A stretch of DNA of 45,909 bases from assembly GCA_903820745.1 (NCBI GenBank), contig CAIJIT010000183.1:1-45909 (forward strand), read 5' to 3'. The position numbers and the translations under genes are program-made. The notes beneath the pieces are model-generated. The model saw only the letters and a list, made by a program, of their open reading frames with translations, had not been told where the DNA came from and ran no database searches. Of this stretch, positions 6,454 to 45,909 are shown piece after piece. Each line of letters opens with the position of its first letter. The first letter of the stretch is position 1. The stretch is from an uncultured Burkholderiales bacterium. Lineage in GTDB: Bacteria > Pseudomonadota > Gammaproteobacteria > Burkholderiales > Burkholderiaceae_C.

Positions 6454-8007
6454 TCAATCGGCGCCACCGATATATAGCTGCTTCAGCGACGGGTTGCGCC
6501 ACACGTCATCGGCAGTACCGGACAAGGCAATGCGCCCATGCTCCATCACATGGACTTGATCGGCCAGTTCGAGCGCGCGTTCGACATCCTGTTCGACGAT
6601 CAGCATCGTCAGGCCTGCGGCGCGCAGTTCGGCCAGGGCGAGATACAAGCGATCCATCATCACTGGCGCCAGGCCAAGGCTGATTTCGTCGAACAGCACC
6701 AGCCGGGGTCGCGACATCAAGGCCCGCCCGATCGCCAGCATTTGCTGCTGCCCGCCCGACATCAAGGTGCCGCCGCTGGCACGACGCTGCTTCAGATCGG
6801 GGAACAGCGAATAGACATGCGACAGGCGATCAGCGCGCTCTGCGGCGCTGACGCCGCGCGCGGCGATCAGCAGATTCTCTTCAACGCTCAAGGTCGCAAA
6901 AATCCGCCGCCCCTCCATGCATTGCGCCAGCCCCAATCGTGCGATCTGATGCGCCGGCGATTGGCTGTGATCGATGCCATCGATGCGAAGCATGCCCGCA
7001 GTCGGCTGAATCGCGCCGCCGATGACCTTGGCCAAGGTGGTCTTGCCGGCCCCGTTGCTGCCCAGAATCGCCACCACCTCGCCGGCGCGCATCCTCAGAT
7101 TGACGCCCTTGAGCACAATCGCCTGGCCATAGCCGGCATGGATGTCGCACAACTCCAGCACGGGCGGCGCCGGCTCGCTCGCCCGACTTGGTTTTGCCAG
7201 CAGCGCGGCCAGACCGAGGCCCGGACCGCAGTCTTTGCCTGGCAGGGGCAGCTTGCGATCATGCGCCGTGCCCAGATAGACCGCCGCCACTTCATCACTG
7301 GCCAGCACCTCGGACGTCGGTCCCGCCGCGAGGCTGCGACCGAAATTGATGACCAGCAGCCGGTCGCAGCATTCGCGTACGACGCGCAGCACATGTTCGA
7401 CGACGATGATGCCTTCGACCTCGGTGCGGATCGCCTGGATCAACTCGATCAACTCGCCGACCTCGGCATCCACCAACCCGGCGCCGACCTCGTCGAGCAG
7501 CAGGAGCTTGGGCGACAAGGCCAAGGCCCGCGCCACCTCGAGTCGCTTGCGGCGCATCAGCGGCAGCTCGCGCGCGCTCAGCTGGGCTGCGTCGGCCAGG
7601 CCAGTGCGTTCGAGGATGCGGTCGCAGGCAGCGTGAGCTTTTGCACTGGGTTCGAAGGCATGGAGTGAATAGCGGGCCGCCAACAGGTTTTCATGCACCG
7701 TCATGTCGAGAAACGGCCGCGGAATCTGCCAGGTGCGGCCGATGCCGCGCCGCGCAAGCTCGGCGGCCGGCCAGGCGCTGACATCCAGTCCATCGAACTC
7801 GATCCGTCCTTCGTCGGCCTTCAGCGCGCCACCGAGCAAGCCGATCAGCGTCGATTTGCCGGCCCCGTTGGGCCCGATGATGCCCAGCACTTCGCCACGC
7901 GCCAGGGTCAATGAGACCTGCTCGATCGCCACCACCCCGGCATAACGCTTGACCAGGCCACAGGCCCGCAACAGCGGCGCGGTCGAAGCCATGGCTCGAT
8001 CGTTCAT
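6454..8007 (-). CDS. Fused LivG-LivF ABC transporter ATPase (two nucleotide-binding domains)
   Basis: One 517-residue polypeptide holds both ATPases of a branched-chain-amino-acid-type (HAAT) importer, which are normally separate LivG and LivF proteins. Domain 1 has Walker A GPNGAGKST (45-53) and Walker B LLLLDEV. Domain 2 has Walker A GSNGAGKTT (about 316-324), the signature MSGGQQQ near 418 and LVLFDEIS. In domain 1 the LSGGQ signature is degenerate (ELPLMRRKRLEVARAL), a variant known among LivG-like ATPases. A linker of roughly 30 residues rich in Pro, Ala and Gly joins the halves. The ATG at 8007 overlaps the LivM stop (ATGA); the frame upstream of it lies inside livM. It is the last gene of unit A. 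Confidence 0.9.
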   Translation of the reverse strand: MNDRAMASTAPLLRACGLVKRYAGVVAIEQVSLTLARGEVLGIIGPNGAGKSTLIGLLGGALKADEGRIEFDGLDVSAWPAAELARRGIGRTWQIPRPFLDMTVHENLLAARYSLHAFEPSAKAHAACDRILERTGLADAAQLSARELPLMRRKRLEVARALALSPKLLLLDEVGAGLVDAEVGELIELIQAIRTEVEGIIVVEHVLRVVRECCDRLLVINFGRSLAAGPTSEVLASDEVAAVYLGTAHDRKLPLPGKDCGPGLGLAALLAKPSRASEPAPPVLELCDIHAGYGQAIVLKGVNLRMRAGEVVAILGSNGAGKTTLAKVIGGAIQPTAGMLRIDGIDHSQSPAHQIARLGLAQCMEGRRIFATLSVEENLLIAARGVSAAERADRLSHVYSLFPDLKQRRASGGTLMSGGQQQMLAIGRALMSRPRLVLFDEISLGLAPVMMDRLYLALAELRAAGLTMLIVEQDVERALELADQVHVMEHGRIALSGTADDVWRNPSLKQLYIGGAD

Positions 8008-8942
8008 TCCTGCCGCCCTCGATCCAGCAGGCGCCGACCCAGCCCGACCAGACCCTGTGGCGCGAAACGGATCACCACGATCAGGATCAAGCCCGTCAGG
8101 GCCAGATGCAAGGCCGGATAGTCCGCCAGCAACTCGCCAATTGCGACGACGAAAATAGCGCCGACGATGGGCCCGGCCCGTAGGCCCTGGCCACCGATGA
8201 TGACGATCGCCAGCACATTGACTGTCCATTGCAGTCCGAACATGCCATAAGGTTCGATCGCGCCGAGTTTGAGCCCCTGCAAGGCCCCGGCCATGCCCAT
8301 CAGGAAACTCGCCACCACAAACACGATCAACTTGATGCGAAAAGTCCGCACACCGATCTGGGCGGCTGCATCCTCGTCATCACGCACCGCGCGCAGGAGA
8401 ATCGAAAAGCGCGAACGCGTCAGCAGCGTCATCAAGGCGGTGGTCAGGCCCAGCAAGGCCAACGCGATCAGGTAGAGCTCGAACAATCCGGGCGGGTCCT
8501 GCACCAGGAAAAGCCCGGTGGCGCCGCCCAAGCCGTTGTAGTTGATCATGAACATCCGCATCGCCTCGGCCAGCGCCAATGTGCCAACCGTGAAATACAG
8601 ACCCCGCATGCGGAACATTGCGCGCGACACCAAGGCCGCCAGCAAGGCCGCACCGAGTCCCGCCAGAGGCATAGCCAGCCCGATCGGCAGGCCGGCGAAG
8701 TTCATCAGGACGGTGAACCCATAAGCGCCGATGCCGAAGAAACAGGCCGTCCCGAGCGAGACCAGCCCGCCGTAGCCGGCCAAGAGATTCCAGGTTTCTG
8801 CCAGCGTGATGAGCAGCAGGATTCGAAAGCCGATCTCGAGCGGGTAGTCAGACAGCACCGGGGCAACAGCGGCCAGCAAGCCAAAGCCCAGCAGCAACAG
8901 CAAGACATGGGCCCGCAGGGATGACAGGGCTGGCGCTGCCAT
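8004..8942 (-). CDS. livM: LivM-like ABC transporter permease
   Basis: This 312-residue, strongly hydrophobic protein is the LivM-type inner-membrane permease of a HAAT importer. It shows the family's early motif AETWNLLAGYGGLVSLG (about 48-64), FRMRGLYFTVGTLALAEAMR around 110-130, and a late VVIIGGQG-like stretch (AIVIIGGQGLRAGPIVGA). About eight to ten membrane segments can be drawn. Its ATG overlaps the stop of the LivH gene, and its own stop overlaps the ATPase start, so the transporter genes are translationally coupled. HAAT systems carry amino acids but also aromatic acids, amides and urea; the gene's place in a catabolic cluster favours an acid substrate (inference). Confidence 0.9.
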   Translation of the reverse strand: MAAPALSSLRAHVLLLLLGFGLLAAVAPVLSDYPLEIGFRILLLITLAETWNLLAGYGGLVSLGTACFFGIGAYGFTVLMNFAGLPIGLAMPLAGLGAALLAALVSRAMFRMRGLYFTVGTLALAEAMRMFMINYNGLGGATGLFLVQDPPGLFELYLIALALLGLTTALMTLLTRSRFSILLRAVRDDEDAAAQIGVRTFRIKLIVFVVASFLMGMAGALQGLKLGAIEPYGMFGLQWTVNVLAIVIIGGQGLRAGPIVGAIFVVAIGELLADYPALHLALTGLILIVVIRFAPQGLVGLGRRLLDRGRQE

Positions 8943-9817
8943 CAGCGAACAGCCCTGCCGATGATGCCCTGCGGGCGCAAGGCCAGCGCGAGCAGGAACA
9001 GCAGCAGACCGATCAAGTCGCGGTAGCCATCGCCAAGGAACACCGCACCCAGGCTCTGCAGCAGACCCAGTGAAATTCCGGCGAGCAAGGTCCCGAAAAT
9101 ATTGCCGACGCCACCCAGAACCACCACCGCAAAACTGATCAACAAATAGCTCGAACCCGAGCTTGGTGTGAAAGAAAAAGCCGTGCCGAGCAGCACCCCG
9201 CCTACCGCGGCGCAGGCAGCGCCGAGCGCAAAGGTCAGGGCGTGCACACGCTTGACATCAACGCCCATGGCCGCTGCGGCTTCGGCATCGCTGGCACTGG
9301 CGCGCAGGTCGCGCCCGAAGGCTGTGCGCGAGATCAGCCAATGAACCAGCAGGACCAGCAACACAGAAACCGCGAAGCCGATCAGGTAGATCTCGGCTAC
9401 CGTAATCGGCCCCAAGCTGACAGCCCGCGAGGCATAGGGCGTATCGATGGCCCGGGTGTCGGCATGAAAAGCCAGCAAATATAGATTCTGCAGAATCACC
9501 GAGACGCCAAACATCGTGATCATCGGCGCATCCAAACCCTTGCCTGCCAAGGGCGCGATCAGCAAGGCCTGAAACGGCAGGGCGATCAGCGCGACGATCA
9601 AGGCCACCAAGGGCAGGCCCAGGATCGGATCAATCCCCGCTTGCTGCAGCAGGAAATAGCCGAGATAGGCGCCGCCGACCAGCAGCTCACCATGCGCCAG
9701 GTTCACCAACCGCATCACGCCCAGCGCGATCGACAGGCCCAGAGCCGTCAATGCAAACATGCCGCCGAGCAAAAAGCCCGCCGCCAGGCTGCTCGCTGCG
9801 CCATCCCAATTCGGCAT
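8942..9817 (-). CDS. livH: LivH-like ABC transporter permease
   Basis: This 291-residue LivH-type permease partners LivM. Family motifs are clear: GGMFALTALGLSIALGVMRLVNLAHGELL near residues 18-46, FGRDLRASASDAEAAAAMGVD around 165-185, and VVVLGGVGNIFGTLLAG late in the protein. The several hydrophobic segments are consistent with an inner-membrane channel. It begins 16 bases after the binding-protein gene and its stop shares one base with the livM start (TGATG). Confidence 0.9.
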   Translation of the reverse strand: MPNWDGAASSLAAGFLLGGMFALTALGLSIALGVMRLVNLAHGELLVGGAYLGYFLLQQAGIDPILGLPLVALIVALIALPFQALLIAPLAGKGLDAPMITMFGVSVILQNLYLLAFHADTRAIDTPYASRAVSLGPITVAEIYLIGFAVSVLLVLLVHWLISRTAFGRDLRASASDAEAAAAMGVDVKRVHALTFALGAACAAVGGVLLGTAFSFTPSSGSSYLLISFAVVVLGGVGNIFGTLLAGISLGLLQSLGAVFLGDGYRDLIGLLLFLLALALRPQGIIGRAVR

Positions 9818-9833
9818 CGCGGCAGTCGCTGCG

Positions 9834-11024
9834 TCAGTTGGCTGAAGGCAAGGGGAAGATCAACTTGCCGTTGGCATGGTTCTTCGGCCAGACCACCACC
9901 GATTTCCCGCCCTGCCATTGCATCAAGGTGATCGGGATGCGCGAGCTGTTGCTGGCGTCGAATTTAACCGGACCGACTACGTAGCTCTTGTCGGTCCTGC
10001 CTATCGCTGCATTGATCTTTTCACGGTCGAGGCTGGCAGCCGCCGCAATCGCGTCGAGCAGCACCTGGGCCGCGGCGTTGGAGTCGGCGATATGCTGGCT
10101 CTGCGACTGTTTGGTCTCGCTTTCGAAACGCTTGGCCAGGTCAGCAGCGCCGGGGTAGCGGAAGGTTGGATCCCAGTAGCCGCCGACCAGCACGCCATCG
10201 GCGAGCTTGCCCAGAGCCTGAGCGAACATTTCAGGTTCGGCGCCTTTTTCCATCACCAGCAATTTGGGTGTGAAGCCCGCAGAAGCCAGTTGCTTGCGGA
10301 TGGCGATCGCTTGCGGCGGAATCGCATCGACCAGCACGATGTCGGCAGCAGCAGTCTTGGCCTGCCCGATCATCGAGGTGAATTGCTGTATGTCGACCGG
10401 AAAGGAGCTCTGATGAACCACCTCGAAGCCGCCAGCCTTGGCTGCCGCCGGCCAGAGCTGGCCGCCCACCACCTGTCCGTCCGGGCCGTTGTCAGCCAGG
10501 ATGGCGATCTTCTTGTTGGTGTTCAAGCCCAGGTCGCTCATCATCCGAAAGCCTGCTGTCGCCAGGTCGCTTTCGTCAAAAAATATCGCCCAGGCATAAC
10601 GCCATTTGCGCACCGATTTGAACGCCATCAGCGGATCGCATCCGGCCACGATGGGCACTTTGCGCCGCTCGGCGACCAGGGCGCCCGCATTCACCAGGGC
10701 CGGCGTGCATGAGCCAAGCATCGCCACCACCTTGTCACGCGACAGCAGGGTCTCGGTATTGCTGGCCGTGACATTCGGATCGGTCTTGTCATCGCGAATG
10801 ATCAGCCGGACGGGCAATTTCTTGCCGTCGATGGCGATCCCGCCCGCCGCGTTGACATCCTTGACGGCGGTCTCATAGCCCCACTTCTGGTACATGCCGA
10901 AACCCGCCAGCGGCCCCGACAGCGGCAGCGACGCGCCAATGACAATTTCTCCGGCAGCTGCAGCCGGCCCGAAGCTCAGTGCGGCGGCAAGGAAGGCCAG
11001 CGCCAGATGTGATTTGATCTTCAT
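9834..11024 (-). CDS. Liv-type periplasmic substrate-binding protein
   Basis: This 396-residue type I periplasmic binding protein (Peripla_BP_6/LivJ class) has a signal peptide ending near Ala-Ala-Ala-Gly at 21-25. Mature-protein motifs include IVIGASLPLSGPLAGFG, NAAGGIAIDGKKLPVRL and the GSCTPALVNAG ligand-loop region. The ATG at 11024 is preceded by GGAG, a good ribosome binding site; a longer frame to 11066 is unlikely. It captures the ligand for the LivH/LivM/LivGF complex encoded immediately downstream. The ligand is unknown, and the unit-A context suggests an organic or aromatic acid rather than leucine. Confidence 0.88.
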   Translation of the reverse strand: MKIKSHLALAFLAAALSFGPAAAAGEIVIGASLPLSGPLAGFGMYQKWGYETAVKDVNAAGGIAIDGKKLPVRLIIRDDKTDPNVTASNTETLLSRDKVVAMLGSCTPALVNAGALVAERRKVPIVAGCDPLMAFKSVRKWRYAWAIFFDESDLATAGFRMMSDLGLNTNKKIAILADNGPDGQVVGGQLWPAAAKAGGFEVVHQSSFPVDIQQFTSMIGQAKTAAADIVLVDAIPPQAIAIRKQLASAGFTPKLLVMEKGAEPEMFAQALGKLADGVLVGGYWDPTFRYPGAADLAKRFESETKQSQSQHIADSNAAAQVLLDAIAAAASLDREKINAAIGRTDKSYVVGPVKFDASNSSRIPITLMQWQGGKSVVVWPKNHANGKLIFPLPSAN

Positions 11025-11062
11025 GACAGTCTCCACTCGCAATCGTTGATCGGGGCAGCAAA

Positions 11063-12067
11063 TCACGCCAGCTTGAAAATCCGTTCGGCGTTGCCGGAAT
11101 AGATCTTGGCCCGCTGGACTTCGCTGATCTCCACCGTGTCGAGGAATCTCACGCCCTCCTCGACGCTCTCATAGGGATAGTCGGCGGCGAACATGATGCG
11201 GTCCTCACCCAGCACCTCCAGGCTCAGCCGCAACGCCGGCCCCGACATCACGCCGGCCGTGGTGATAGCGAAGTTGTCAAGAAAGTACTCGCTCGGCAAT
11301 TTCTTCATCTTCTTGACCGCGCCGATCTTCACCTGCAGCAAGTAGCGGTTGTCGATGCGCTGCAACCAGAACGGCAGGCCTTCGCCCATATGGCCGAGCA
11401 CGATCTTCAGTCGCGGGAATTCGTCGAACAGGCCGCACATGATCAAGCGCATCGCGTGCAGACTGGTCTCGACAGCGAAGCCGAAACCGGCGAAATAAAG
11501 GCCGTAATCGAGGAACGGCGAGACCATGCCCGGCGAGGGCTCGCGCGGATGCAGATAGAGCGGCAGATCGAGCGCCTGCGCGGCCTCGAAGATCGGCCAG
11601 TATTTGCGATCGTCGAGGTATTCGCCCATCGTGTGCGAGTTGATCAAAAAGCCCTTCATCCCCAGGCCGCTGGCTCGGTGAAGTTCCAGTGCAGCACCCG
11701 CCGGGTATTGCGGCGCCACAGCAGCCAGGGCGGCGAAGCGGGTCGGATGCGCCAGCACGGCAGCAGCGAGTTGATCATTGGCATCCTTGGCCAAGCGGGT
11801 CGCAGTCACCGCGTCGAAAGCCTGCACCCCTGGCGAGGTGATCGAGAGCACGGCCATGTCGATCCCGTCGGCATCCATCTGCGCGATGCGGCCGGCGCCG
11901 ATGTCGACCAACCTCGAATGCACCAGTCTGGCACCCGGATCATCGCCGAGGATGGTCTGCCCCATCATGCGGAAGCCCGGCTCGACGAACTTGCTCGCCA
12001 ACACCTTCTTCCATTCCTGGGCAATCTCTTCGGTAACGAAGGCCTCTTCAACTGCAATTCGTTTCAT
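11063..12067 (-). CDS. LigW-like amidohydrolase-superfamily decarboxylase
   Basis: This 334-residue protein of the ACMSD/gamma-resorcylate decarboxylase branch of the amidohydrolase superfamily most resembles, from memory, 5-carboxyvanillate decarboxylase (LigW). Shared features include RIAVEEAF at the N-terminus, IAQMDADGIDMAVLSITSPG near 61-80, INSHTMGEYLD at 142-152 and GHMGEGLPFWL at 225-235. Likely metal ligands are Glu7/Glu8, His173, His226 and Asp296 (AADYPYE). LigW-type enzymes use a divalent metal to remove a carboxyl group from a phenolic ring without redox. It sits between the sulfatase-like gene and the Liv importer genes. Substrate assignment is inference. Confidence 0.82.
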   Translation of the reverse strand: MKRIAVEEAFVTEEIAQEWKKVLASKFVEPGFRMMGQTILGDDPGARLVHSRLVDIGAGRIAQMDADGIDMAVLSITSPGVQAFDAVTATRLAKDANDQLAAAVLAHPTRFAALAAVAPQYPAGAALELHRASGLGMKGFLINSHTMGEYLDDRKYWPIFEAAQALDLPLYLHPREPSPGMVSPFLDYGLYFAGFGFAVETSLHAMRLIMCGLFDEFPRLKIVLGHMGEGLPFWLQRIDNRYLLQVKIGAVKKMKKLPSEYFLDNFAITTAGVMSGPALRLSLEVLGEDRIMFAADYPYESVEEGVRFLDTVEISEVQRAKIYSGNAERIFKLA

Positions 12068-12109: not shown

Positions 12110-13726
12110 TCACCAGACGCCGATCTCAACGCCACCGGGTTCGGTCCGGTGCCGGGTCCAATCTTCGACTTGGGCATCCGCCATGGTTGTCCGTTGGCGT
12201 CTACCGGTATGCCAGGCTGTCAGGCGCTCCAGCAGTTCGGCCCGGACCGATGCATGGGCCGACGCAAGCCCCAGGTCGACCAGCTCTTGCGGGTCGTCCT
12301 GCAGATCGAAAAGCTGCGGCGCGAAGCCGGCGTAACGGATCAATTTCCATCGCTCGGTGCAGACCATCTCGGCCCGCGCCTGGTTGACGCCAAGCCCGAG
12401 GGCCGCGCGTGCGCCATAGAAGGCGTAGTCCAGCTCGGAAAACGCCGCCTCGCGCAGGCCCGATGCCTGCCCGCGCAAATGGGGCAAGAGCGACTTGCCT
12501 TCCAGCCACTGCGCATCAGCCGGCGCACCGACCGCTTCGACAAAGGTCGGCAGCAGATCGATCGCTTCGACCAGATCGTCCACCACCTGGCCGCGCCGCT
12601 GCGCCGCGGGGTCGACGATGATCAGCGGCACGCCTGCGCTGGGCTCGTAGAACATTTCCTTTTCGCCCAGCCAATGGTCGCCGAGCAGGTCGCCATGGTC
12701 GCTGGTGAAAACGATCAGCGTGTCGTCGAGCCGGCCCGCCGCTTTCAAGGATTCGATCAAGCGGCCCAGATTGTCATCCAGCTGCTTGACCAGTCCCATA
12801 TAGCTGGGGATGACCGCCAGCCTGACTTCATCACGCGAAAACGCCTGGCTCTCCGCGTGGTTGCGAAAGGCCCGGTAGACCGGGTGCTTGTCGTCGCGTT
12901 CGGCCAGGCTGCGCTTGGCAGGCAGGATGTCGTCGCCGCCATAGGCCTGGTGGTAAGGCGCTGGAGCGATATATGGCCAATGCGGCTTGATGTAGGAAAG
13001 GTGCAAACACCAGGGCGCTTCGCCTTGCGCGCGGATGAAGTCGATGGCGGTATCGGTCGCCCAGGCGGTTTCCGAATGCCGCTCCTTGACCCGCGCAGCC
13101 AGACCTGAATTGCGCAGCTTCCAGCCGCTTTGCAACTGGCCCGCCGCGTCGACGCCGGAATTGGCAAACTCATGCCAGGCGTTGACCGCCTGATAGCCAC
13201 TGCGGCGCAAATAGTCGTTGTAGACATAGCTGCGCTGCTTCAGTCCGGCATCGAGCACCACGCCGTCATGACGCGCATAGGGCTCGAACCCCCCTTGAGA
13301 CAGCAGCAGGCCCGGCGGGCTGAGCGGGTCGATGCCCAGCCGGTTCATGCCGGCGCTGTCGCCGACGACATGGGTCTTGCCGATGACTGCCGTTCGCAGC
13401 CCGGCCTTGCGCATGTAATCGCCCATGGTCGGAATCTGCACCGACAGCGGGACGAAATTCCAGGTCGACCCATGGCTCGCCACATAGCGCCCGGTGTAGG
13501 TGGACATGCGCGAAGGGCCGCAGACCGTCCCCTGCACATAGCAGCGATTGAAGCGAGTACCGCTTGCGGCCAAGGCATCGATATGCGGAGTCTTCAGCGT
13601 CGGATGCCCGTAGCAGCCGAGATAGTCGCGACGCAGCTGATCGCACATGATGAAGAGAATATTGCGCGCTCGCCGCGGCCCGGTCTGGGGCGGCTCGCTG
13701 GCTGCAGATCGGCTCGCCGTCATCAC
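12110..13726 (-). CDS. Sulfatase / phosphonate monoester hydrolase-like enzyme
   Basis: This 538-residue member of the alkaline phosphatase superfamily carries the sulfatase signature CGPSR with Cys69 expected to become formylglycine, followed by TGR. The N-terminal metal site reads MCDQLRRD (Asp29-Gln30) rather than the Asp-Asp of classical arylsulfatases; Asp-Gln is typical, from memory, of phosphonate monoester hydrolases and some choline sulfatases. A later SDHGDLLGDH block gives the other metal ligands. There is no signal peptide, so it is probably cytoplasmic. The start is GTG at 13726 (AGGA eight bases upstream) or ATG at 13723. It follows the Bug gene without a gap. No formylglycine-generating enzyme is in the window. 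Confidence 0.83.
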   Translation of the reverse strand: MMTASRSAASEPPQTGPRRARNILFIMCDQLRRDYLGCYGHPTLKTPHIDALAASGTRFNRCYVQGTVCGPSRMSTYTGRYVASHGSTWNFVPLSVQIPTMGDYMRKAGLRTAVIGKTHVVGDSAGMNRLGIDPLSPPGLLLSQGGFEPYARHDGVVLDAGLKQRSYVYNDYLRRSGYQAVNAWHEFANSGVDAAGQLQSGWKLRNSGLAARVKERHSETAWATDTAIDFIRAQGEAPWCLHLSYIKPHWPYIAPAPYHQAYGGDDILPAKRSLAERDDKHPVYRAFRNHAESQAFSRDEVRLAVIPSYMGLVKQLDDNLGRLIESLKAAGRLDDTLIVFTSDHGDLLGDHWLGEKEMFYEPSAGVPLIIVDPAAQRRGQVVDDLVEAIDLLPTFVEAVGAPADAQWLEGKSLLPHLRGQASGLREAAFSELDYAFYGARAALGLGVNQARAEMVCTERWKLIRYAGFAPQLFDLQDDPQELVDLGLASAHASVRAELLERLTAWHTGRRQRTTMADAQVEDWTRHRTEPGGVEIGVW

Positions 13727-14734
13727 TCAATCGATCCTGATTTTTGCTGCCCTGGCCACCTCGGCCCAGCGGATCAATTCGCTGTGGATCAAGGCTGAAA
13801 ACTCGGCGGAACTTCCCGGCGCAGCCTCGGCGCCGAGCTTGACCATCGTCTCCTTGACCTGCTCGTTGGCCAGCGCCCTGGACAAGGCAATATTCAAGCG
13901 CGCGATGACCTCGCCCGGGGTGCCGTTCTTGACCAGGATGCCTTGCCAGTCCCGCACAGCCAGACCAGGGAAGCCCTGCTCAGCCACCGTCGGCACATCG
14001 GGCAAGGTTGGCAGGCGTCGCTCGGAGGCTACCGCCAGCGCTTTCAGCTTGCCGCCCTGAATGCCGGGAATGGCCGATGGCACAGCCAGGAACATATAGA
14101 CATGCAGCCCGGCCATCAAATTGACGACGGGCGGGCTCGCGGGATAAGGCACATGGATCGCATCGGTCTGGGTCTGAGCCGCGAACAATGCCGCGATCAA
14201 ATGGGCCGGCGTGCCATTGCCCCCGGTGGCATAGGACAGCTCGCCGGGTTTGCTCTTCAACAGTGCCACCAGGTCCTTGGTCGAAGTCAGATTGAGCGCA
14301 GCCGGGACGACCAGGGCGTTGTAGGACCAGGCGGTCTGACCGATCGCGGTGAAGTCCTTTTTCAAATCGTAGGGCACCTTGGCATAGATGGCCGGCGCTA
14401 CCGTCATCGGCATGAACATCGTCATCAGCGTGTAGCCGTCGGCTGGTGCTTGCAGCACCGCCAATGCGCCCACAGTGCCGGTGGCACCGGGTTTGTTTTC
14501 GACGAAAACCGTCTGCTTCAGGTCCTCGCCCATCTTGCTGGCCACCAGGCGCGAGATGATGTCGATCGGCGTACCGACCGGCGTCGGCACCAGCAGCTTG
14601 ATCGGCTTGCTGGGGAAGGTCTGAGCCCAAGCTCCCGAAGCGCAAACAAGCAGTCCGGCGGCGAGCATGGCCAGCCGCTTCAGAACCCAGCCATCAAGCG
14701 GCCGATTGCCATGCTGGACTAATTTCTTCTGCAT
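13727..14734 (-). CDS. Bug/TctC-family periplasmic solute-binding protein (unit A, second copy)
   Basis: This 335-residue Bug-family protein has a signal peptide cleaved near Ala37 (GAWA|QTFPSKP). The mature start FPSKPIKLLVP, followed by ENKPGATGTVGALAV and the DGYTLM motif, is diagnostic. Bug proteins bind carboxylates such as tricarboxylates, nicotinate or terephthalate and are often not linked to TctAB membrane partners; none is seen here. The ATG at 14734 has AGAGG upstream; an extension to 14821 adds a sequence unlike any signal peptide. The stop is adjacent to the sulfatase start. Confidence 0.88.
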   Translation of the reverse strand: MQKKLVQHGNRPLDGWVLKRLAMLAAGLLVCASGAWAQTFPSKPIKLLVPTPVGTPIDIISRLVASKMGEDLKQTVFVENKPGATGTVGALAVLQAPADGYTLMTMFMPMTVAPAIYAKVPYDLKKDFTAIGQTAWSYNALVVPAALNLTSTKDLVALLKSKPGELSYATGGNGTPAHLIAALFAAQTQTDAIHVPYPASPPVVNLMAGLHVYMFLAVPSAIPGIQGGKLKALAVASERRLPTLPDVPTVAEQGFPGLAVRDWQGILVKNGTPGEVIARLNIALSRALANEQVKETMVKLGAEAAPGSSAEFSALIHSELIRWAEVARAAKIRID

Positions 14735-14817: not shown

Positions 14818-15453
14818 TCATCGCAATGAAGCAATGACTTCGGCTTCATAGGCCAGGGCCTTGTGCACGCTGGCGCGCTGCTGCATCCTGGCAAAATGCG
14901 CGCTGCAATGCTTGAAGCCCGACAGATCCAGATTGAACTGGATGCCGCGCCGGAAGCACCAGAAGAAATAGGCATCTGCCGCGCTGAACTTGTCGAAGAA
15001 CCAGTCCCGGCCCGCGAGCATGTCGTCGGCAATCTGGTAGTTTTCAAACAGCTTCTTGCGGGCACAACGGCGCACGCTTTCTTCCGAACCCGGCAGATCG
15101 CAAAACTGCTCCGGGCGCGCGTTTGGCGTCAGCGCCGGGTGGATCCCGCTGGCACACCAGGCCATGAATGAAATCGCCTTGATTTCTTCCAGCGGGTCGG
15201 CGGGCAGCAGTCCGGCCTGGGGGAAAGCTCTCGCCACCCAGATCTGGATCGCAACGTTCTCGGTCAAGGCAAAGCCATCGATCAACAGCACCGGCACCCT
15301 GTGCTTCGGATTGATCTTCAGGTACGCCGGTTCCAGCTGCTGGCCCTTGCCCAGATTGACATCGATGACCTCAAAGCCTGCGCCCGCCTCGGTCAGCGTC
15401 AGGTAGGGCACCAACGAACAGGTTCCCGGTGCGTAGTAAAGGGCAAGATCCAA
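14818..15453 (-). CDS. Glutathione S-transferase family protein (TTG start)
   Basis: This 211-residue GST has a thioredoxin-like N-terminal domain with YYAPGTCSLVPYLTL (Cys12 in the position used by bacterial beta-class GSTs), KHRVPVLLIDG before the cis-Pro, and LTENVAIQIWVA, followed by an all-helical C-terminal domain. The start codon is TTG, supported by a strong GAGGAG six bases upstream. Its place among CoA-pathway genes suggests a catabolic role such as thiol-dependent ether cleavage, isomerisation or detoxification of a reactive intermediate; this is inference. It lies between a crotonase gene and a Bug gene. Confidence 0.85.
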   Translation of the reverse strand: MDLALYYAPGTCSLVPYLTLTEAGAGFEVIDVNLGKGQQLEPAYLKINPKHRVPVLLIDGFALTENVAIQIWVARAFPQAGLLPADPLEEIKAISFMAWCASGIHPALTPNARPEQFCDLPGSEESVRRCARKKLFENYQIADDMLAGRDWFFDKFSAADAYFFWCFRRGIQFNLDLSGFKHCSAHFARMQQRASVHKALAYEAEVIASLR

Positions 15454-15503: not shown

Positions 15504-16277
15504 CTAAGCGCGAGGATACACAGGAGCACGCTTCTCGAGCCTTGCCTGAATACCCTCGGTTTTGTCGGCGCTTGCAAACAAGAGCTGGAAGGATTTGCGC
15601 TCGAACTGCAGGCCCTGCTCAAGCGGCAGGTTCATGCCCGCCAGCACCGCTTCCTTGATGAACTGCAACGCCTGTTGCGGCCCCTGCGCCATCTGCAAAG
15701 CCAATTCGAGCGCGCGGGCTTCGACCTGCTCGTCGGGCACGACTTCGCTGAGCAGGCCCATGGCCAGCGCCTCGCCGGCCTTGATCGGCGCGCCGATCAG
15801 CATCAACTTCATCGCGCGGAACTTGCCCACCGCAAGCGTCAGCCGCTGGGTTGCGCCGCCGCCTGGCATCAAACCGATCAGGACTTCGGGCTGGCCAAAA
15901 CGGGCCGACTCACCCGCGATGATCAGGTCCGCATGCATCGCCAGTTCGCAGCCGCCTCCCAGCGCATGGCCACGCACTGCAGCAATCACCGGCTTGCGGC
16001 ATTGGCTGATCGCGGACCAGAGCCGGTCCATCCTGCGCTCGATGATTTCGGGCGGCGTCGCGTCGACATATTCATTCAGGTCAGCGCCGGCACAAAAAGC
16101 CCGCTCACCGCCGGCCAGGATGATGCAGCGCACTGAAGCATCGGCTTCCAGACGGGCGAAGGCTTGGGCCAACTCCTGGCGCAAAGCCAGGTTCAGTGCA
16201 TTCAGTACCGCCGGCCGATCTAGGCGCAACAAGGCGACGCCATCAGCGGGTCTTGTTTCGTTCAGGCAAGAAGCCAT
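15504..16277 (-). CDS. Enoyl-CoA hydratase/isomerase (crotonase) family protein, canonical Glu pair
   Basis: This 257-residue crotonase has AFCAGADLNEY for the first oxyanion-hole region, GGGCELAMHADL containing the first catalytic Glu, and FGQPEVLIGLMPGGGATQRL with the second Glu. Both acid-base residues of enoyl-CoA hydratase are therefore present, so hydration of an enoyl-CoA is the most likely reaction. The ATG at 16277 overlaps the stop of the next crotonase gene upstream (ATGA), giving coupled translation. It resembles PaaF-type hydratases. It is expected to work with the adjacent thiolase and SDR in a beta-oxidation-like chain. Confidence 0.88.
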   Translation of the reverse strand: MASCLNETRPADGVALLRLDRPAVLNALNLALRQELAQAFARLEADASVRCIILAGGERAFCAGADLNEYVDATPPEIIERRMDRLWSAISQCRKPVIAAVRGHALGGGCELAMHADLIIAGESARFGQPEVLIGLMPGGGATQRLTLAVGKFRAMKLMLIGAPIKAGEALAMGLLSEVVPDEQVEARALELALQMAQGPQQALQFIKEAVLAGMNLPLEQGLQFERKSFQLLFASADKTEGIQARLEKRAPVYPRA

Positions 16278-27011: not shown

Positions 27012-27024
27012 AAAAACAACTCCA

Positions 27025-36404: not shown

Positions 36405-37274
36405 TCACTCCGAAAAGACGACTTCGCCCGAGTTGTAGATGCGCGCCCGCGCCCTGCGGTTGATCCAGCAATTGAACTCGACCGCCACCGGTATGAAGCC
36501 ATGACCCGAGGCATAGTTGACATGCACGGCCATGGCCGTACTGTCGCCGCCGGTGCCCATCGGGCCGAAACCGGTCGCATTGACCGCCTTCAACAGCCTC
36601 GCTTCCATCGCCGCCACCATCGGCTCGGGGTTGGGCTGGCCGAATGACCGCAGCACCGCGTCCTTGGCCAGCTTGGCGCAGTAGTCAAAAGTGCCGCCGA
36701 TGCCGACGCCGATCACCACCGGCGGGCAATGTTGGGAGCCCGCCTTCAGCACCACGCTCATGATGAACTGCTCGATCACCTCAAGGCTGGGGAAGCTGAA
36801 AATTTCCAGCGCCGACCAGCGCCCCGAACCCAGCGCCTTGGGCGAGCAGGTGATCTCGACATAGTCGGCGCCGTCGACCAAATCGAAGGTCGTGATCGGC
36901 ATGTCCTTGCCCTTGTGTCCGCGCTCCAGCGTCAGCGGGTTGGTCACATGGGTGAGCAGCGGCGGCGAAATTTCACGCACCAGTTCGGCAAAGCCGTCGG
37001 TGACCGCACGCTTGAAATCGCCGTCGAAGCGCGCCTGCGTGCCGACCTTGACGCTGTAGACCGGAATGCCGGCGTCGGAGCAGACGAAGAAGTTCTGCCG
37101 CTCGGCGGCCTCGGCGCTTTTCATCATCACGCGCAGGGTCTTGCGCGCGGTGTCGTTGCTGTCTCTGGCCTCGGCATCCGCCAGGGCCAGTTTGGTGTCT
37201 TCGGGGATTTTTTTCAGCGACGACTCGTAGAGCCTTTTGGTCACCGATTTCACCAACTCGTAGGAGATCGCCAT
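36405..37274 (-). CDS. Fumarase/L-tartrate dehydratase-type hydratase, alpha subunit (4Fe-4S)
   Basis: This 289-residue alpha subunit carries the three Cys expected to hold the 4Fe-4S cluster: Cys65 (FFVCSDAGIPVY), Cys183 (QHCPPVVIGVGIGGT) and Cys269 (EFNCWINRRA). It also contains VTNPLTLERGHKGKD and the DSTAMAVHVNYASGHGF segment. Known relatives hydrate fumarate, mesaconate or dehydrate tartrate. The gene lies two bases after the D-2-hydroxyacid dehydrogenase gene, so a pathway in which a 2-hydroxyacid is made or consumed is plausible. The exact dicarboxylate is unknown. Confidence 0.88.
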   Translation of the reverse strand: MAISYELVKSVTKRLYESSLKKIPEDTKLALADAEARDSNDTARKTLRVMMKSAEAAERQNFFVCSDAGIPVYSVKVGTQARFDGDFKRAVTDGFAELVREISPPLLTHVTNPLTLERGHKGKDMPITTFDLVDGADYVEITCSPKALGSGRWSALEIFSFPSLEVIEQFIMSVVLKAGSQHCPPVVIGVGIGGTFDYCAKLAKDAVLRSFGQPNPEPMVAAMEARLLKAVNATGFGPMGTGGDSTAMAVHVNYASGHGFIPVAVEFNCWINRRARARIYNSGEVVFSE

Positions 37275-37276
37275 GC

Positions 37277-38257
37277 TCAGCCCTTGCCCGCATAAATTTC
37301 GGGGTTGACGACAAACTGCGGACGCTCGCTTCGCAAAGCCGCCACGATGGCCCGGACAGTGGCCATCGCCACCCGTTCGACCGCCTCATGCGAGAAGGTC
37401 GCCATATGTGGCGTGACCAGGATGCCGGGTACGGCGATCAGCGGGCTGGGGCTGTTCGCACCCTGTTGGCACAACACATCAACCGCAGCGCCAGCCAGAT
37501 GCTTGCTGATGACGGCATGCGCCAAGGCCGCCTCGTCGATCAAGCCGCCACGCGCCGTATTGATCAGGAAAGAACCCTTTTTCATCATCGCCAGCCGGTC
37601 GGCGTTGATCAGGTTCTGCGTTGCCGCTGTCAATGGCGCGTTCAAGGAGACGAAGTCGCCTTCACGCAGCCCTGTCTCGAGGTCAACATACTCGATGCCA
37701 TGAGCGGCAGCGAAGGCTTCGTCGCGGCTGTTGCTGACCGCCAGCACGCGCATGTCGAAGCCGCGCGCGCGCTTTGCAAGTCCTCGTCCGATGCGGCCGA
37801 GGCCGATGATGGTCAGGGTCTTGTTCCAGACCTCGGTGCCCGAAAAACGCTCCCAGCCATGCTGTTGAACGCCCTGCACCGCTGGCACGATATTGCGCGC
37901 CGCCGCCAGCAGCAGCCCCATCGCGAAATCCGACACGCTCTGGTCGTTGACCGGGGAAATGGTGACGGCGATGCCGCGCCTGGTGCAGGCCGCAAGGTCG
38001 ACGGTGTCATAGCCAACGCCGGGTCTGGCGATCACCTTCAAACGGCTGGCAGCGTCGATCAAACAGCTGCTGACCGGTTCCATGGCAAAAGACAGCGCAT
38101 CGACATCCCGGGCCTGTTCGATCAGCCAGGCCTCGTCGAGCGGCAAGGGCGTGTTCTTGACTTCAACAACACAGCCTGCATCGCGCAGGAACTGCAAGCT
38201 GGCTTGCGATGCGCTGACCGACTTGGCGGTGATGAGGACTTTGCCGAGCATGGTCAT
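37277..38257 (-). CDS. D-2-hydroxyacid dehydrogenase (D-3-phosphoglycerate dehydrogenase-like)
   Basis: This 326-residue dehydrogenase has the NAD-binding GLGRIGRGLAKRA motif (152 onward), catalytic Arg in NTARGGLIDE, an acidic partner near DVLCQQG, and His in TPHMATFSHEA. It would interconvert a D-2-hydroxyacid and a 2-oxoacid. ATG 38257 overlaps the stop of the CocE-type gene (ATGA). Placement directly before the hydratase subunits suggests that it acts on the hydratase product or substrate. Substrate-specific residues cannot be read from sequence. Confidence 0.87.
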   Translation of the reverse strand: MTMLGKVLITAKSVSASQASLQFLRDAGCVVEVKNTPLPLDEAWLIEQARDVDALSFAMEPVSSCLIDAASRLKVIARPGVGYDTVDLAACTRRGIAVTISPVNDQSVSDFAMGLLLAAARNIVPAVQGVQQHGWERFSGTEVWNKTLTIIGLGRIGRGLAKRARGFDMRVLAVSNSRDEAFAAAHGIEYVDLETGLREGDFVSLNAPLTAATQNLINADRLAMMKKGSFLINTARGGLIDEAALAHAVISKHLAGAAVDVLCQQGANSPSPLIAVPGILVTPHMATFSHEAVERVAMATVRAIVAALRSERPQFVVNPEIYAGKG

Positions 38258-40068
38258 TCGCCCGTGGGGTCACGCGGGATGATGGGCAGCAACAAATGCG
38301 AGGGATAGGTTTCGTTGTGGTGGATCTTGTGCACGACGGTCTTGCTGCTGCACAGATGGTAGGGCACATATTCGGTGTTGTTGCCGAAGCCGGTGCCGCT
38401 GGGCAGATCCATCGCGGTGATTTCGAGACAGATCCTGTGGCCTTTGGCGAACAAATTGGCCGTGGCCAGAACCTCGACCTGATACTCGTTGATCTCGCCC
38501 GGCACCACCGGCTGATGGGCTTCACGGGTCAGCTTGTGCCAGGGCTTCCAGGGCTTGCTGCGCTTTTCGTCGAGGGCGCGCTGCGAAGCTTTCAGCCAGC
38601 CGCGGGTCAGTTCGCGTTCGGGCAGGTCGGCAGGCACCTCGAATTCGCCCTGGCGGCCGGTGCGCACCGAGACATCGGGCCCGACATCCTTGAGGACGAT
38701 GATCCAGTTGGTGTCATCCTGATCGAGTTCAGCGAAGAAGGTCAGCGAAATCGGCCCGATCACCAGCGTTTCTTCTGCCAGCGGCTCGGTCATGAAGCGC
38801 AGCTTCTCGATCTTGCGCGTCTGCGTTGGCGGCATCTGCACAAAGGTATCGGGCGCCTTGTAACCATCGCGCCCGCCTTCGACAAAGGGCTCGGCGCGCA
38901 AGCGCTCCCAGCTATGCAGATAGAGCTTGGTCCACTGTGTTTCGGGCAAGGGCCAGGCGGCGCCGGTGCGCCAGCGGTTCGCGCCCTGCACCCAGAGCTT
39001 GACCGGCGGCTCGTCCATGATGCCGTTGTCCTTGCCCTTGAGCCAATGGTCGTACCAGCGCACGATTTCCTCATGCATCGAATGGAAGGGCCGCTCCATA
39101 TGGGTGATGCCGGTGAACAACAGCTTCTTCGGCACATCGACCCCGGCATACCAGTTCTGCGCGCCCTGCAGATGCATCTTGTAGGTGTAGGCATGCCAAC
39201 CCGCGCCGGTATAGGCCGGGATCTTGATCTTGGCAAAGCCTGCTTCGCTCTCCTCGTAAGCGCCTTCTTTTTCGAAGAAGTCGATCAGCTGGTTGAACAA
39301 GCGGCTGTGGATCTGACCTTTTTGCGACAGCAGGTTGTAGACCCAGCTGTACATCCGATAGTCCGGGTTCTTCATCGCCACCTGCCACAGCGCTTCCTCG
39401 CGCTCCGACAAAGGCCCGGGCCGGCCATGGCCGCCATGGTGAACCGATTGCCCGTCGAGCAGATACAGCATCACATGCATGACACCGCCGGGGCAGCGAT
39501 CATGGAAGGCGCCATAGGCCGGCATCGCGTCAAACGGGAAAATCGCTTTCAAGGCCGGCGGCGCCTGCATCGCGGCATGCCATTGCGACAAGGCGTAGGC
39601 CGACAAGCCGACCATGCCGACATTGCCGTCGCACCAGGGTTGGGCGGCAACCCATTCGATCAGGTCGTAGAGGTCCCATTGCGGCGAGCCGCCATCTTCT
39701 GACTTGCCAAAGCCGCGTGGGTTGCCGATCACATGGACATAGCCACGCGAGGTGAAGAAATCACTGTCGCCGCATTCCGCACCGCCCTGCCACATCGTTG
39801 ACCAGGCCGGCTGCGGCGGCAGCGCTTCGGCCACCTCGGGATTCTGCAATTCCTTGTTGTGGCCGGCGATCGCCAGCAGTGCCGGAAAGCGGCCCGCTGC
39901 TGGTGGGCGGTAGACATCGACGCAAAGCCGCACGCCATCGCGCATCGGCGCCATCAGGTCGCGGTCCCAGATCAAGGGACCATGTTCAGGCCTGGATGGT
40001 TCACCCGCATGTGGCGGCAGATGCTGGGTGCCACCGACCAGCCATTGGCTTTTTTTCTTTTCAATCAT
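38254..40068 (-). CDS. CocE/NonD (S15-type) family hydrolase, copy 2
   Basis: This 604-residue protein has exactly the same length as the one at 29488-31302 and is its clear paralogue: MAPMRDGVRLCVDVYRP, GYVHVIGNPRGFGKSEDGG, GLSAYALSQ with Ser156, and FTGITHMERPF with the His. Like copy 1 it has Ala (GWHAYTYK) where the usual GWYD would supply the acid. There is no signal peptide. It lies between the CoA-transferase and dehydrogenase genes. The two copies may open different esters or lactones, or form a heteromer (inference). Confidence 0.87.
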   Translation of the reverse strand: MIEKKKSQWLVGGTQHLPPHAGEPSRPEHGPLIWDRDLMAPMRDGVRLCVDVYRPPAAGRFPALLAIAGHNKELQNPEVAEALPPQPAWSTMWQGGAECGDSDFFTSRGYVHVIGNPRGFGKSEDGGSPQWDLYDLIEWVAAQPWCDGNVGMVGLSAYALSQWHAAMQAPPALKAIFPFDAMPAYGAFHDRCPGGVMHVMLYLLDGQSVHHGGHGRPGPLSEREEALWQVAMKNPDYRMYSWVYNLLSQKGQIHSRLFNQLIDFFEKEGAYEESEAGFAKIKIPAYTGAGWHAYTYKMHLQGAQNWYAGVDVPKKLLFTGITHMERPFHSMHEEIVRWYDHWLKGKDNGIMDEPPVKLWVQGANRWRTGAAWPLPETQWTKLYLHSWERLRAEPFVEGGRDGYKAPDTFVQMPPTQTRKIEKLRFMTEPLAEETLVIGPISLTFFAELDQDDTNWIIVLKDVGPDVSVRTGRQGEFEVPADLPERELTRGWLKASQRALDEKRSKPWKPWHKLTREAHQPVVPGEINEYQVEVLATANLFAKGHRICLEITAMDLPSGTGFGNNTEYVPYHLCSSKTVVHKIHHNETYPSHLLLPIIPRDPTGE

Positions 40069-40135: not shown

Positions 40136-41356
40136 TCAGACCACGCCGGCTTGGCGCAATTGGGCGATTCTCGCGTCATCGAGGCCGATCGCGTGCAGGA
40201 TCTGGTCAGAATGTTCACCCAGCAGCGGCGGCGCAATCTTGTGCTCGAGCGGCGCTTGCATGAAGCGCATCGGGCTGGCCACCGAGGGCACAGTGCCTGA
40301 CAGCGGATGCTCGATCTGCACCAGCATGCCCCGGTGCTTGACCTGCGGATCCGCAAAGACTTCGCTGATCTTGTTGATCGGGCCGGCCGGCACACCCGCA
40401 GCATCAAGAGCCGCCACCCAATGCTGGCGGTCGTTCTGCTTCAAACGCTCGGCGATCAAGGGCTGCAGCAGGCCCAGGTTGCGCACCCTGGCCGAGTTCT
40501 TCCTGAAGCGCTCATCCTGGGCCAGGTCGTCCAGACCCAGCGCCGCACAGAATTTGACGAACTGGCTGTCATTGCCGACTGCCAGCACCATGTCGCCGTC
40601 GCGGCAGGCATAGACATTCTGCGGCTGGATGTTCGGATGCGAGGTGCCCATGCGCTGCGGCTCCTTGCCCGAAACGAGGAAATTCATCGCCTGGTTGGAC
40701 AGCGTTGCCACTTGCACATCGAGCATGCCGATGTCAATGCATTCGCCTTCGCCGGTGACATCGCGGCGCGCCACGGCAGCCAGCACCGCGATCGCCGCAT
40801 ACATGCCGGTCATCAGATCGACGATCGGCACGCCGACTTTTTGCGGCCCGGCACCGGGCCGCCCATCGCGCTCGCCGGTGATGCTCATCAGACCGCCGAG
40901 GCCCTGGATCATGAAGTCGTATGCGGCTTGTTCGGCGCGCGGGCCGGTCTGACCGAAGCCGGTGACCGAGCAGAAGATCAGCTTCGGATTGATCTTTTTC
41001 AGGTCTTCATAAGCCAGGCCATAACGCGCCAACGTGCCGACCTTGTAGTTCTCGAGCACGATGTCGAAATCCTTGACCAGCTCGCGCACGATGGCCTGGC
41101 CCTCGGGCTTGTCGATGCCGACCGTGACCGAGCGTTTGCCGCGATTCACCGACAGGTAATAGCCTGCCTCCTTGGTGTCAAGACCAGCGCTGTCTTTCAG
41201 GTAGGGCGGCCCCCAGCTGCGGGTGTCGTCACCCGCCCCCGGGCGCTCGACCTTGATCACATCGGCGCCAAGATCGGCAAGAATTTGCCCCGCCCAAGGG
41301 CCGGCAAGGATTCGGCTCAAGTCGAGCACGCGGATATGCGATAAGGGTCCGGACAT
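40136..41356 (-). CDS. CaiB/BaiF family (class III) CoA-transferase
   Basis: This 406-residue class III CoA-transferase has the N-terminal VLDLSRILAGPWAGQILADLGADVIKVE motif, GTLARYGLAYEDL, SVTGFGQTGP and the catalytic Asp180 in VPIVDLMTGM. Such enzymes move CoA between carboxylic acids, often succinate or oxalate and the pathway acid. ATG 41356 has AGGA nine bases upstream. It is the first gene of unit B, divergent from the TonB-dependent receptor. It gives a second activation route besides the ligase of unit A. The 67-base gap to the CocE-type gene holds nothing recognisable. Confidence 0.88.
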   Translation of the reverse strand: MSGPLSHIRVLDLSRILAGPWAGQILADLGADVIKVERPGAGDDTRSWGPPYLKDSAGLDTKEAGYYLSVNRGKRSVTVGIDKPEGQAIVRELVKDFDIVLENYKVGTLARYGLAYEDLKKINPKLIFCSVTGFGQTGPRAEQAAYDFMIQGLGGLMSITGERDGRPGAGPQKVGVPIVDLMTGMYAAIAVLAAVARRDVTGEGECIDIGMLDVQVATLSNQAMNFLVSGKEPQRMGTSHPNIQPQNVYACRDGDMVLAVGNDSQFVKFCAALGLDDLAQDERFRKNSARVRNLGLLQPLIAERLKQNDRQHWVAALDAAGVPAGPINKISEVFADPQVKHRGMLVQIEHPLSGTVPSVASPMRFMQAPLEHKIAPPLLGEHSDQILHAIGLDDARIAQLRQAGVV

Positions 41357-44963: not shown

Positions 44964-45909
44964 GCAGCAATGCAGCCGGCCCCAGTAAAATTTTTTATGG
45001 CTGGCTGATTGCGCTGGTTGCCGGACTCGGGACGGCAAGTTCGGTCGGGATCTTCATCCCGGCGACGATCGGCTTGCTGATCGCCCCCTTGGCTGCCGAG
45101 TTTCACTGGACGGCCAAGGAAATTTTCCTGGCACCCGCCTTCGCGACGACTTCGACGATCCTGGTCGCGCCGTTCATGGGGGCGATCATTGACAAGTTCG
45201 GCCCTCGGCGGGTGATCACGGTCTCGTTCCTGATCGAAGCCTTGATCATGGCCTCGTTCAGCTACCTCGATGATTCGCTCTGGTTGTTCTACGCCCGCTA
45301 CCTGGCTTTCGCCCTGCTCGCCACCGGCACGACCCATGTCGCATTCACCACCCTGGTGTCGCGCTGGTTTGACCGGCGGCGCGGCTTGGCGCTGGGCATC
45401 GCATTGGCCGGATTCGGTGTCGGCGGTGTGTTCTGGTCGCTGGTCGCCAACGCCTTGTTCAAGCAGGTCGGCTGGCGCGACGCGTTTCCAGTCATGGCGC
45501 TGATCATCCTGCTGGTGACCTTGCCGATCATGTACCTGATCGCGCGTGACTCACCCCAGGCAATGGGGCTGAATGTCGACGGTGATGCGCCCAAAGTCGA
45601 TGCGTCAGGCAAGGTCGAAATGCGCGCCGAATTGACCGGCATGAGCTTGCGCGAAGCCGCAACGACGCGGCAATATTGGATGATGATCGTGATCTTCTGC
45701 CTGATCGGTCTGAGCGTGCAGAGCGTGATGCTGCATATGGTGCCTTACCTGACAGCGCGCGGTGAATCGCGCGAAACCGCAGTGATGATCCAGGCCTCGC
45801 TCTGGGCCGTGCTGGTCGTCGGACGCATCTCCACCGGCTGGTTGATGGACCGCTTCTTCGCCCCGCGAGTGGGTCTGGCTTTTCTGCTGCTGCCGATCGT
45901 CGGCATCGG
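44960..45909 (+). CDS. MFS transporter, 3' end outside window
   Basis: Translation from ATG 44960 stays open to the window end, giving 316 residues. It shows FYGWLIALVAGLG at the start, IIDKFGPRRVITVS in the loop after the second membrane segment (the MFS GxxxDRxGRR-like motif), RWFDRRRGLALGIALAGFG, and a later GWLMDRFF repeat of the motif. At least eight hydrophobic segments are visible. It belongs to the organic-acid/oxalate-formate-antiporter-like branch of the major facilitator superfamily. The ATG overlaps the preceding stop (ATGA). It likely imports the compound admitted by the TonB-dependent receptor, or a product of it. Confidence 0.85.
   Translation, partial: MSSNAAGPSKIFYGWLIALVAGLGTASSVGIFIPATIGLLIAPLAAEFHWTAKEIFLAPAFATTSTILVAPFMGAIIDKFGPRRVITVSFLIEALIMASFSYLDDSLWLFYARYLAFALLATGTTHVAFTTLVSRWFDRRRGLALGIALAGFGVGGVFWSLVANALFKQVGWRDAFPVMALIILLVTLPIMYLIARDSPQAMGLNVDGDAPKVDASGKVEMRAELTGMSLREAATTRQYWMMIVIFCLIGLSVQSVMLHMVPYLTARGESRETAVMIQASLWAVLVVGRISTGWLMDRFFAPRVGLAFLLLPIVGI

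Follow-up and report, generated by a model that had tools for sequence, protein, structure and literature searches.

Organization of the stretch

We analysed a 45,909-bp stretch of DNA from an uncultured Burkholderiales bacterium (hereafter the window), which is a whole contig (G000:C183) of a 5.1-Mb assembly in 357 contigs and carries three units of catabolic genes. Genes were called from open reading frames (ORFs), and families were assigned to 40 window proteins by Pfam and NCBIfam scans, a 171-aa ORF at 17-532 being left out; the proteins A5, A12, A13 and B3 were also compared with PDB entries. Unit A consists of 15 minus-strand genes at 6454-22666 with intergenic gaps of -4 to 83 bp, as counted in an earlier note on this DNA, and unit B has 14 minus-strand genes (26043-41356; gaps of -17 to 175 bp), one more than that note gave. 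Unit C, on the plus strand, is made of a TonB receptor, an alpha/beta hydrolase and an MFS gene truncated by the contig end. Two LysR genes, R2 and R3, lie between units A and B.

At the centre of this report is the core of unit A (module A), which we place by synteny. It begins with R2 (22764..23762, plus strand), its probable regulator, which is divergent from seven minus-strand genes: the TctC receptor A15 (21647..22666), the short-chain dehydrogenase/reductase (SDR) A14 (20846..21607), the EntE/salicylate-type AMP ligase A13 (19172..20818), the PF04909 amidohydrolase A12 (18302..19144; CouO-like by context), the PcaF-type thiolase A11 (17097..18302) and the crotonases A10 (16277..17086) and A9 (15504..16277). 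The core of unit B (module B), likewise defined by family scans and synteny, comprises the probable regulator R3 (23687..24637, minus strand), the carboxymuconolactone-decarboxylase-family (CMD) gene X (24707..25342, plus strand; PF02627) and three minus-strand genes, namely the class III (CaiB) CoA-transferase B14 (40136..41356; NF052585 at 492 bits, cut-off 750), the GST B6 (31314..31952) and the crotonase B7 (31955..32731). R2 and R3 (22764-24637) converge with an overlap of 76 bp, though each recurs with a different module.

The Pfam and NCBIfam scans bore out the gene inventory of the earlier note (a ligase, a CaiB transferase, three crotonases, two SDRs, a PcaF thiolase, fumarase halves, two GSTs and two CocE proteins), and PDB comparison upheld its LigW-like A5 and LigI-like B3. 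To this inventory we add the amidohydrolase A12, the third of the window, the sulfatase A6, the D-2-hydroxyacid dehydrogenase B12 and the CMD-family X. Among the 40 scanned proteins (the 171-aa ORF stands outside the scan) there was neither a ring-cleaving dioxygenase nor an acyl-CoA dehydrogenase. The description of the region as catabolic, CoA-based and, among these proteins, free of oxygenases is right. A contig of a second metagenome-assembled genome (MAG; CANFIC010000014.1, Burkholderiales bacterium Jr-11may16-4) repeats this gene order from part of A15 through C2, with 98.7-99.1% identity at the DNA level, and therefore an assembly chimera is an unlikely source of the juxtaposition of units A, B and C.

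Recurrence of the two cores in relatives

When 250 genomes of the order were searched with A13 (E <= 1e-120), matches were found at 17 places in 16 genomes, the source genome included. The genome searches scored only 3 to 6 candidates per genome and misses are possible; neighbouring ORFs around these places are rough calls based on third-codon-position GC content (GC3). At all five places outside the source genome where the ligase was 60-77% identical to A13, homologues of A12 (68-85%) and A14 (58-82%) lay alongside or, in genome G058, within one six-gene set with it, and A12 was found in none of the eleven 20-kb regions around more distant ligases (40-47%). In genome G180 an A11 homologue (76%) joins this trio of SDR, ligase and A12. 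In genome G058 six functions (SDR, ligase, two crotonases, amidohydrolase and thiolase) occur together, with crotonases and thiolase only 36-41% identical to those of the window; the recurrence of the same functions at such low identity argues for a functional team.

The same operon was present on plasmids of Acidovorax sp. DW039 (source on record: Lemna minor) and Sphaerotilus sulfidivorans, both with the order LysR-TctC-SDR-ligase-amidohydrolase-carboxylesterase-PcaF-crotonase-crotonase. Each of these proteins is 50-88% identical to its window counterpart, the LysR protein being 58-59% identical to R2; the carboxylesterase (PF00135) is missing from unit A of the window. The 36.8-kb regions around the two plasmid operons contained no orthologues of unit B. 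The Acidovorax region gave family-level matches only (TctC 38%, PcaD 27%, LysR 31%), and none was listed for Sphaerotilus, where a dienelactone hydrolase flanks the core. On the Acidovorax plasmid (L046 1844-27212), module A is bordered on one side by ben/cat genes, beyond an IS5 transposase gene, and on the other by a gallate dioxygenase gene. Among the titles and abstract starts listed by searches of open-licence PMC papers, none concerned the operon of R2 and A15-A9, which is weak evidence of absence. A vague 40-kb supercluster is reduced in this way to a compact eight-gene operon (R2, A15-A9), also carried by two plasmids and open to expression and testing.

Module B was followed through 13 loci, obtained from plasmid CaiB and FumA matches and from B7 matches (3 of 398 other order genomes). 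CaiB (60-68%) was accompanied by at least two of GST, CMD and B7 in 8 of the 13. Variovorax 2u118, SPNA7 and SRS16 carry LysR, CMD, LigI-like, GST, CaiB, TctC and B7 (83-84%) genes; two Roseomonas and Paracoccus marcusii have FumAB, a hydroxyacid dehydrogenase-like protein, GST, CaiB, CMD and a crotonase (41-47%); genome G138 has CaiB, B7, LysR, LigI-like, CMD and GST, and genome G097 has LysR, CMD, CaiB and B7. The LysR proteins beside the CMD, LigI-like and CaiB genes in relatives are 40-48% identical to R3. A Liv ABC set (28-42%) is close to module B in Variovorax SPNA7. Among the matches listed for the 13 loci, there were none to A12, A13 or A14, and none to B5, B13, B8 or B9.

The earlier note had read the three units as one pathway and had named, as what would refute it, a lack of co-regulation together with separate occurrence in relatives. 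Separate occurrence was found for the parts that can be placed, the unit-A core and the unit-B core, R2 recurring with the former and R3 with the latter; in relatives, the units were joined only on the one near-identical MAG contig. A single pathway is unsupported because the two cores recur separately.

Enzymes of the module A core

A13 is closest to salicylate- and 2,3-dihydroxybenzoate (DHB)-AMP ligases, matching 5wm2 at E 8e-143 and annotated DHB-AMP ligases on plasmids at 40-43% identity. It shares homology and the HN and ACPG motifs with this group (5wm2, PchD, DhbE). All 8 A13-clade proteins retain the motifs HNLPLACPG, QSGGQ and VQENFG; where 5wm2 has HNF, QVGG and QQV, the clade has HNL, QSGG and QEN, and it stands in a catabolic context. 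The match of A13 to TIGR02275 (515 bits, cut-off 723.55) raises the question of an aryl-capped siderophore route, in which A13 would act like EntE together with an EntA-like SDR, A14. We rejected this reading as highly improbable: the score is below the cut-off, no NRPS domain was found among the 40 scanned proteins, and A13 and A14 are conserved alongside catabolic neighbours, namely a thiolase, crotonases and a TctC receptor.

A11 exceeds the PcaF equivalog cut-off (TIGR02430, 651.8 versus 597 bits). The source genome holds a second PcaF on contig C296, 68% identical to A11. In a tree of eight sequences, which included four module PcaFs, the C296 PcaF and a Paracoccus PcaF, the four module PcaFs stood apart from the latter two with a support of 0.958. 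For the crotonases we assume the rule of two catalytic Glu positions; read by eye, A9 has both, and A10 has a PGDGG motif and has lost the second.

The nearest solved relative of A12 is the uncharacterised BB4693 (E 4e-24). By sequence, the A12 clade is rare, because none of the 397 other genomes of a phylum sample matched at E <= 1e-100. Plasmids gave 153 matching records, and the gene context was examined in eight. The full operon was present in two of these, and in two others (Peteryoungia, Phaeobacter) the A12 relatives adjoin genes for feruloyl-CoA synthase, SDR and crotonase. One context has SDR, CoA ligase, MaoC and acyl-CoA dehydrogenase alongside, one has a crotonase and paa genes, one lies downstream of an acetoacetate-CoA ligase, and one is without any such neighbour. 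A12 is 35-37% identical over 284 aligned positions to the feruloyl-CoA-synthase-linked amidohydrolases of Phaeobacter and Peteryoungia. A single-sequence AlphaFold model of A12 had a mean pLDDT of 43.5 and was not used.

Outside the core, A5 (11063..12067, minus strand) is a LigW-like amidohydrolase and a possible ortho-hydroxyaryl decarboxylase, with E 2e-92 to the 5-carboxyvanillate decarboxylase 4icm. Its motifs EEAF, LHPR, GHMGE and DYP contain Glu, His, His and Asp positions that we take to be the active-site residues of LigW and ortho-hydroxyaryl decarboxylases. The earlier note had proposed an ortho-hydroxylated substrate, for which the salicylate-ligase-like A13 and the LigW-like A5 give weak support; against it, the pocket motifs of A13 differ, and no A5 homologue was found in the recurring unit-A loci.

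Readings of the region and its other genes

What the data establish is gene content, recurrence, separate occurrence and family relations; every reaction, the order of steps, the regulation and all substrates are our inference. We read the window as at least two catabolic modules in tandem, each under its own regulation, rather than one pathway, with the module A core carrying out a CouO-like shortening, and put the probability of this reading at roughly 0.55. The unit-A core looks like CoA-dependent side-chain shortening, a known route for plant phenolics, in a variant form whose ligase and amidohydrolase are unusual, and its likeness to CouO-type deacetylation follows from the A12 relatives that adjoin feruloyl-CoA synthase, SDR and crotonase. 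In this scheme, the core would take up an acid and shorten it without O2 as CoA esters: A13 would form the CoA ester, A9 would hydrate the alpha,beta double bond, A14 would oxidise the beta-hydroxyl, and A12 would hydrolyse the beta-ketoacyl-CoA in the fashion of CouO to a smaller, probably aromatic, acid and acetyl-CoA. A10 and A11 might serve a further dicarboxylyl-CoA fragment, or 3-oxoadipyl-CoA after ring cleavage elsewhere. Module B (R3, X, B14, B6, B7 and, variably, B3 and B10-B12) would activate a different acid through CaiB, with subsequent hydration and lactone or ester hydrolysis.

The Cou genes other than that for CouO encode a CoA ligase, a crotonase and an SDR. Module A shares with this beta-oxidative deacetylation the grouping of these three with a PF04909-type amidohydrolase, and no acyl-CoA dehydrogenase or oxygenase is needed. 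The earlier note had argued from the missing ring-cleaving dioxygenase and acyl-CoA dehydrogenase that known aromatic routes do not explain the set; the lack of the latter leaves room for such routes, because alpha,beta-unsaturated (cinnamate-like) acids need none. In Rhodococcus jostii RHA1, CouO is the amidohydrolase of the last step of p-hydroxycinnamate deacetylation, and CouR is a MarR-type regulator (PMC4737184). The ferulate pathway of Agrobacterium fabrum (SpG8-1b) likewise proceeds through feruloyl-CoA synthase, enoyl-CoA hydratase, dehydrogenase and beta-keto cleavage, in that order, and its last enzyme is termed a beta-keto-thiolase (PMC7797058); module A differs from it in ligase family and regulator. 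PipU, V, W and X of Rhodococcus ruber (sequences LC871764-LC871767) shorten piperic acid by a route similar to p-hydroxycinnamate shortening (PMC12753220); as described, it resembles the scheme for module A in turning a cinnamate-like side chain, through CoA esters and beta-oxidation-like steps, into an aromatic acid. Our reading points to an EntE-family ligase and a subgroup of CouO-like amidohydrolases in catabolism.

Several observations weigh against this reading. A13 is EntE-like and not like hydroxycinnamoyl- or feruloyl-CoA-synthase ligases, the regulator is a LysR protein unlike the MarR-type CouR, and PcaF and the second crotonase are superfluous for a simple deacetylation. The likeness of A12 to CouO is drawn indirectly, from context and from the feruloyl-CoA-synthase-linked relatives. 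In 8 of 8 A12-clade proteins, HCY and MIDVG place Tyr and Asp at two positions where each of the six aligned outside relatives (Rhizobium, Peteryoungia, Phaeobacter, Haloferax, Streptomycetaceae and Thermomicrobium) has His; the HxH and third His positions of these relatives are presumably metal ligands. Because both His positions are replaced throughout the clade, A12 may do something other than the CouO reaction; its context is CouO-like, and in its residues it departs from that group by one feature. Measured by identity, the PcaF of Sphaerotilus is equally near ordinary PcaFs (69-70%) and that of G180 (70%), and A11 is for this reason only likely to be a dedicated paralogue. In genomes G010, G097 and G143 no crotonase or thiolase adjoins the trio; in G010 a thiolase of 40% identity is found ~30 kb away. 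Weak echoes of the other units exist at family level: of unit B near the G010 trio (D-2-hydroxyacid dehydrogenase, 33%; CocE, 30%) and of unit C near the G058 set (MFS, 34%). Five module-B loci are only partial: Comamonas (CaiB, GST), Azospirillum (CaiB), genome G137 (B7), and Martelella and Parasedimentitalea (FumAB). In the Paracoccus module-B locus, pcaG and a protocatechuate 3,4-dioxygenase beta gene lie close to a PcaF that shares 64% identity with A11, and modules A and B are side by side in two near-identical MAGs.

Hydrolytic ring opening is known from BadI, an enzyme of another fold, and module A might open a ring in a comparable way: A13 would activate a cyclic (ortho-hydroxy or unsaturated alicyclic) acid, a crotonase and the SDR would yield a cyclic beta-ketoacyl-CoA, A12 would open it hydrolytically, and A9/A10 and PcaF would continue via 3-oxoadipyl-CoA. 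The EntE-type ligase family activates ortho-hydroxy ring acids, the core has neither an oxygenase nor other flanking aromatic genes except the Sphaerotilus dienelactone hydrolase, and the separation of the module PcaFs in the eight-sequence tree fits as well. We hold this alternative to be tentative and the weaker one, as a cyclic substrate is without direct evidence, the A12 relatives with informative context adjoin feruloyl-CoA synthase, BadH is absent from the top 25 families for A14, and the PcaF of Sphaerotilus stands equally close to ordinary PcaFs and to that of G180. Somewhat more doubtful still is the bolder idea of an oxygenase-free route not described before: in module A, the EntE-type ligase would work with an amidohydrolase whose metal site has been rebuilt, and an alicyclic or ortho-hydroxy plant acid would have its ring opened, or its beta-ketoacyl-CoA cut, on the way to 3-oxoadipyl-CoA. 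That one pathway spanning all three units would degrade a complex acid of ortho-hydroxylated aryl or lignin-like type, as the earlier note held, seems improbable to us: adjacency in two MAGs, complementary CoA chemistry, the trio and a partial module B in G097 (on different contigs), the echoes near the G010 and G058 trios and the PcaF near the Paracoccus module B speak for it, and the recurrence of the modules apart, each with its own LysR, speaks against it.

An aromatic acid freed by module A could be finished outside the window, since the genome carries genes of ring-cleavage dioxygenase families on other contigs. Although A11 resembles the lower end of the beta-ketoadipate pathway in exceeding the PcaF cut-off, no PcaIJ, PcaGH, CatA or ring-cleavage enzyme was found among the 40 scanned proteins. 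Outside the window, contig C238 gave the one intradiol-family match of the genome, and three LigB-family matches came from C182, C193 and C141. C182 encodes the beta subunit of a class III extradiol dioxygenase, protocatechuate 4,5-dioxygenase type (574.9 bits versus 317), and its gene adjoins a LigI-like gene; the C238 intradiol-family ORF and a LigB-family ORF on C193 had zero NCBIfam matches at E <= 1e-60.

The remaining genes of unit A, all on the minus strand, are a Liv-type ABC system of a fused LivG-LivF-type ATPase with two ABC_tran stretches (A1, 6454..8007), LivM- and LivH-type permeases (A2, 8004..8942, and A3, 8942..9817; both PF02653) and a LivK-type binding protein (A4, 9834..11024; PF13458), followed by a sulfatase-family hydrolase with a CGPSR motif (A6, 12110..13723; PF00884), a TctC receptor (A7, 13727..14734; PF03401) and a GST (A8, 14818..15453; PF02798). 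Unit B, on the same strand, continues with a TctC receptor (B1, 26043..27014; PF03401), two PcaD-like alpha/beta hydrolases 41% identical to each other (B2, 27025..27837, and B4, 28704..29504; both from family scans) and the LigI-like amidohydrolase B3 (27821..28717). B3 matches the PDC hydrolase 4d8l at E 1.6e-44 and is 35% identical to the LigI-like protein on C182; it is alike in family to LigI and 4-sulfomuconolactone hydrolase, and its score of 187.8 bits is below the 500-bit cut-off.

Family scans further identified a CrtI/CrtO-like FAD protein (B8, 32839..34767), an SDR (B9, 34804..35598) and a D-2-hydroxyacid dehydrogenase (B12, 37277..38257). Class I fumarase-type C- and N-terminal halves are encoded by B10 (35774..36400; PF05683) and B11 (36405..37274; PF05681; relatives at 61-65%). 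The CocE-type hydrolases B5 (29488..31302; TIGR00976) and B13 (38254..40068) are two paralogues in one gene row, 60-61% identical. For B13, a search of 398 other order genomes at E <= 1e-130 gave nothing; three plasmid relatives at 50-57% whose surroundings were examined (Bradyrhizobium, Cupriavidus and Paracoccus methylovorus) had no B5 or B8 partner nearby, with only family-level matches of <=42% to other window proteins. B8 was matched at E <= 1e-60 in 5 of 398 other order genomes. The conserved synteny of the CrtI-like gene with both CocE-type genes that the earlier note had proposed to look for did not appear: the four CrtI-like order-genome loci examined out of the five (20-38 kb; G271 left out) and a Herpetosiphonaceae locus (14 kb) were without a CocE match.

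Unit C contains the TonB-dependent receptor C1 (41728..44055) and the MFS transporter C3 (44918..45909), both assigned by family scan, and the alpha/beta hydrolase C2 (44058..44963), with 44-45% relatives within two Variovorax module-B loci. The uptake parts of the window are thus one Liv ABC system, three TctC receptors, the TonB receptor and the MFS transporter, with no TctA or TctB among the scanned proteins. A promoter scan of 22000-26500 found none, five terminator-like sites were seen there versus 3.8 expected, a scan for the TN{11}A motif was uninformative, and an Rfam scan of the window gave zero matches. A 674-bp stretch at 25361-26034, missing from the near-identical MAG contig (L002, CANFIC010000014.1), codes for a BrnT-type toxin (PF04365) and a helix-turn-helix antitoxin-like protein and is single-copy in its own genome. 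To the left of the units, 542-6148 contains genes for a LysR protein, a fumarase/aspartase-type lyase, an MmgE/PrpD protein and an amidase.

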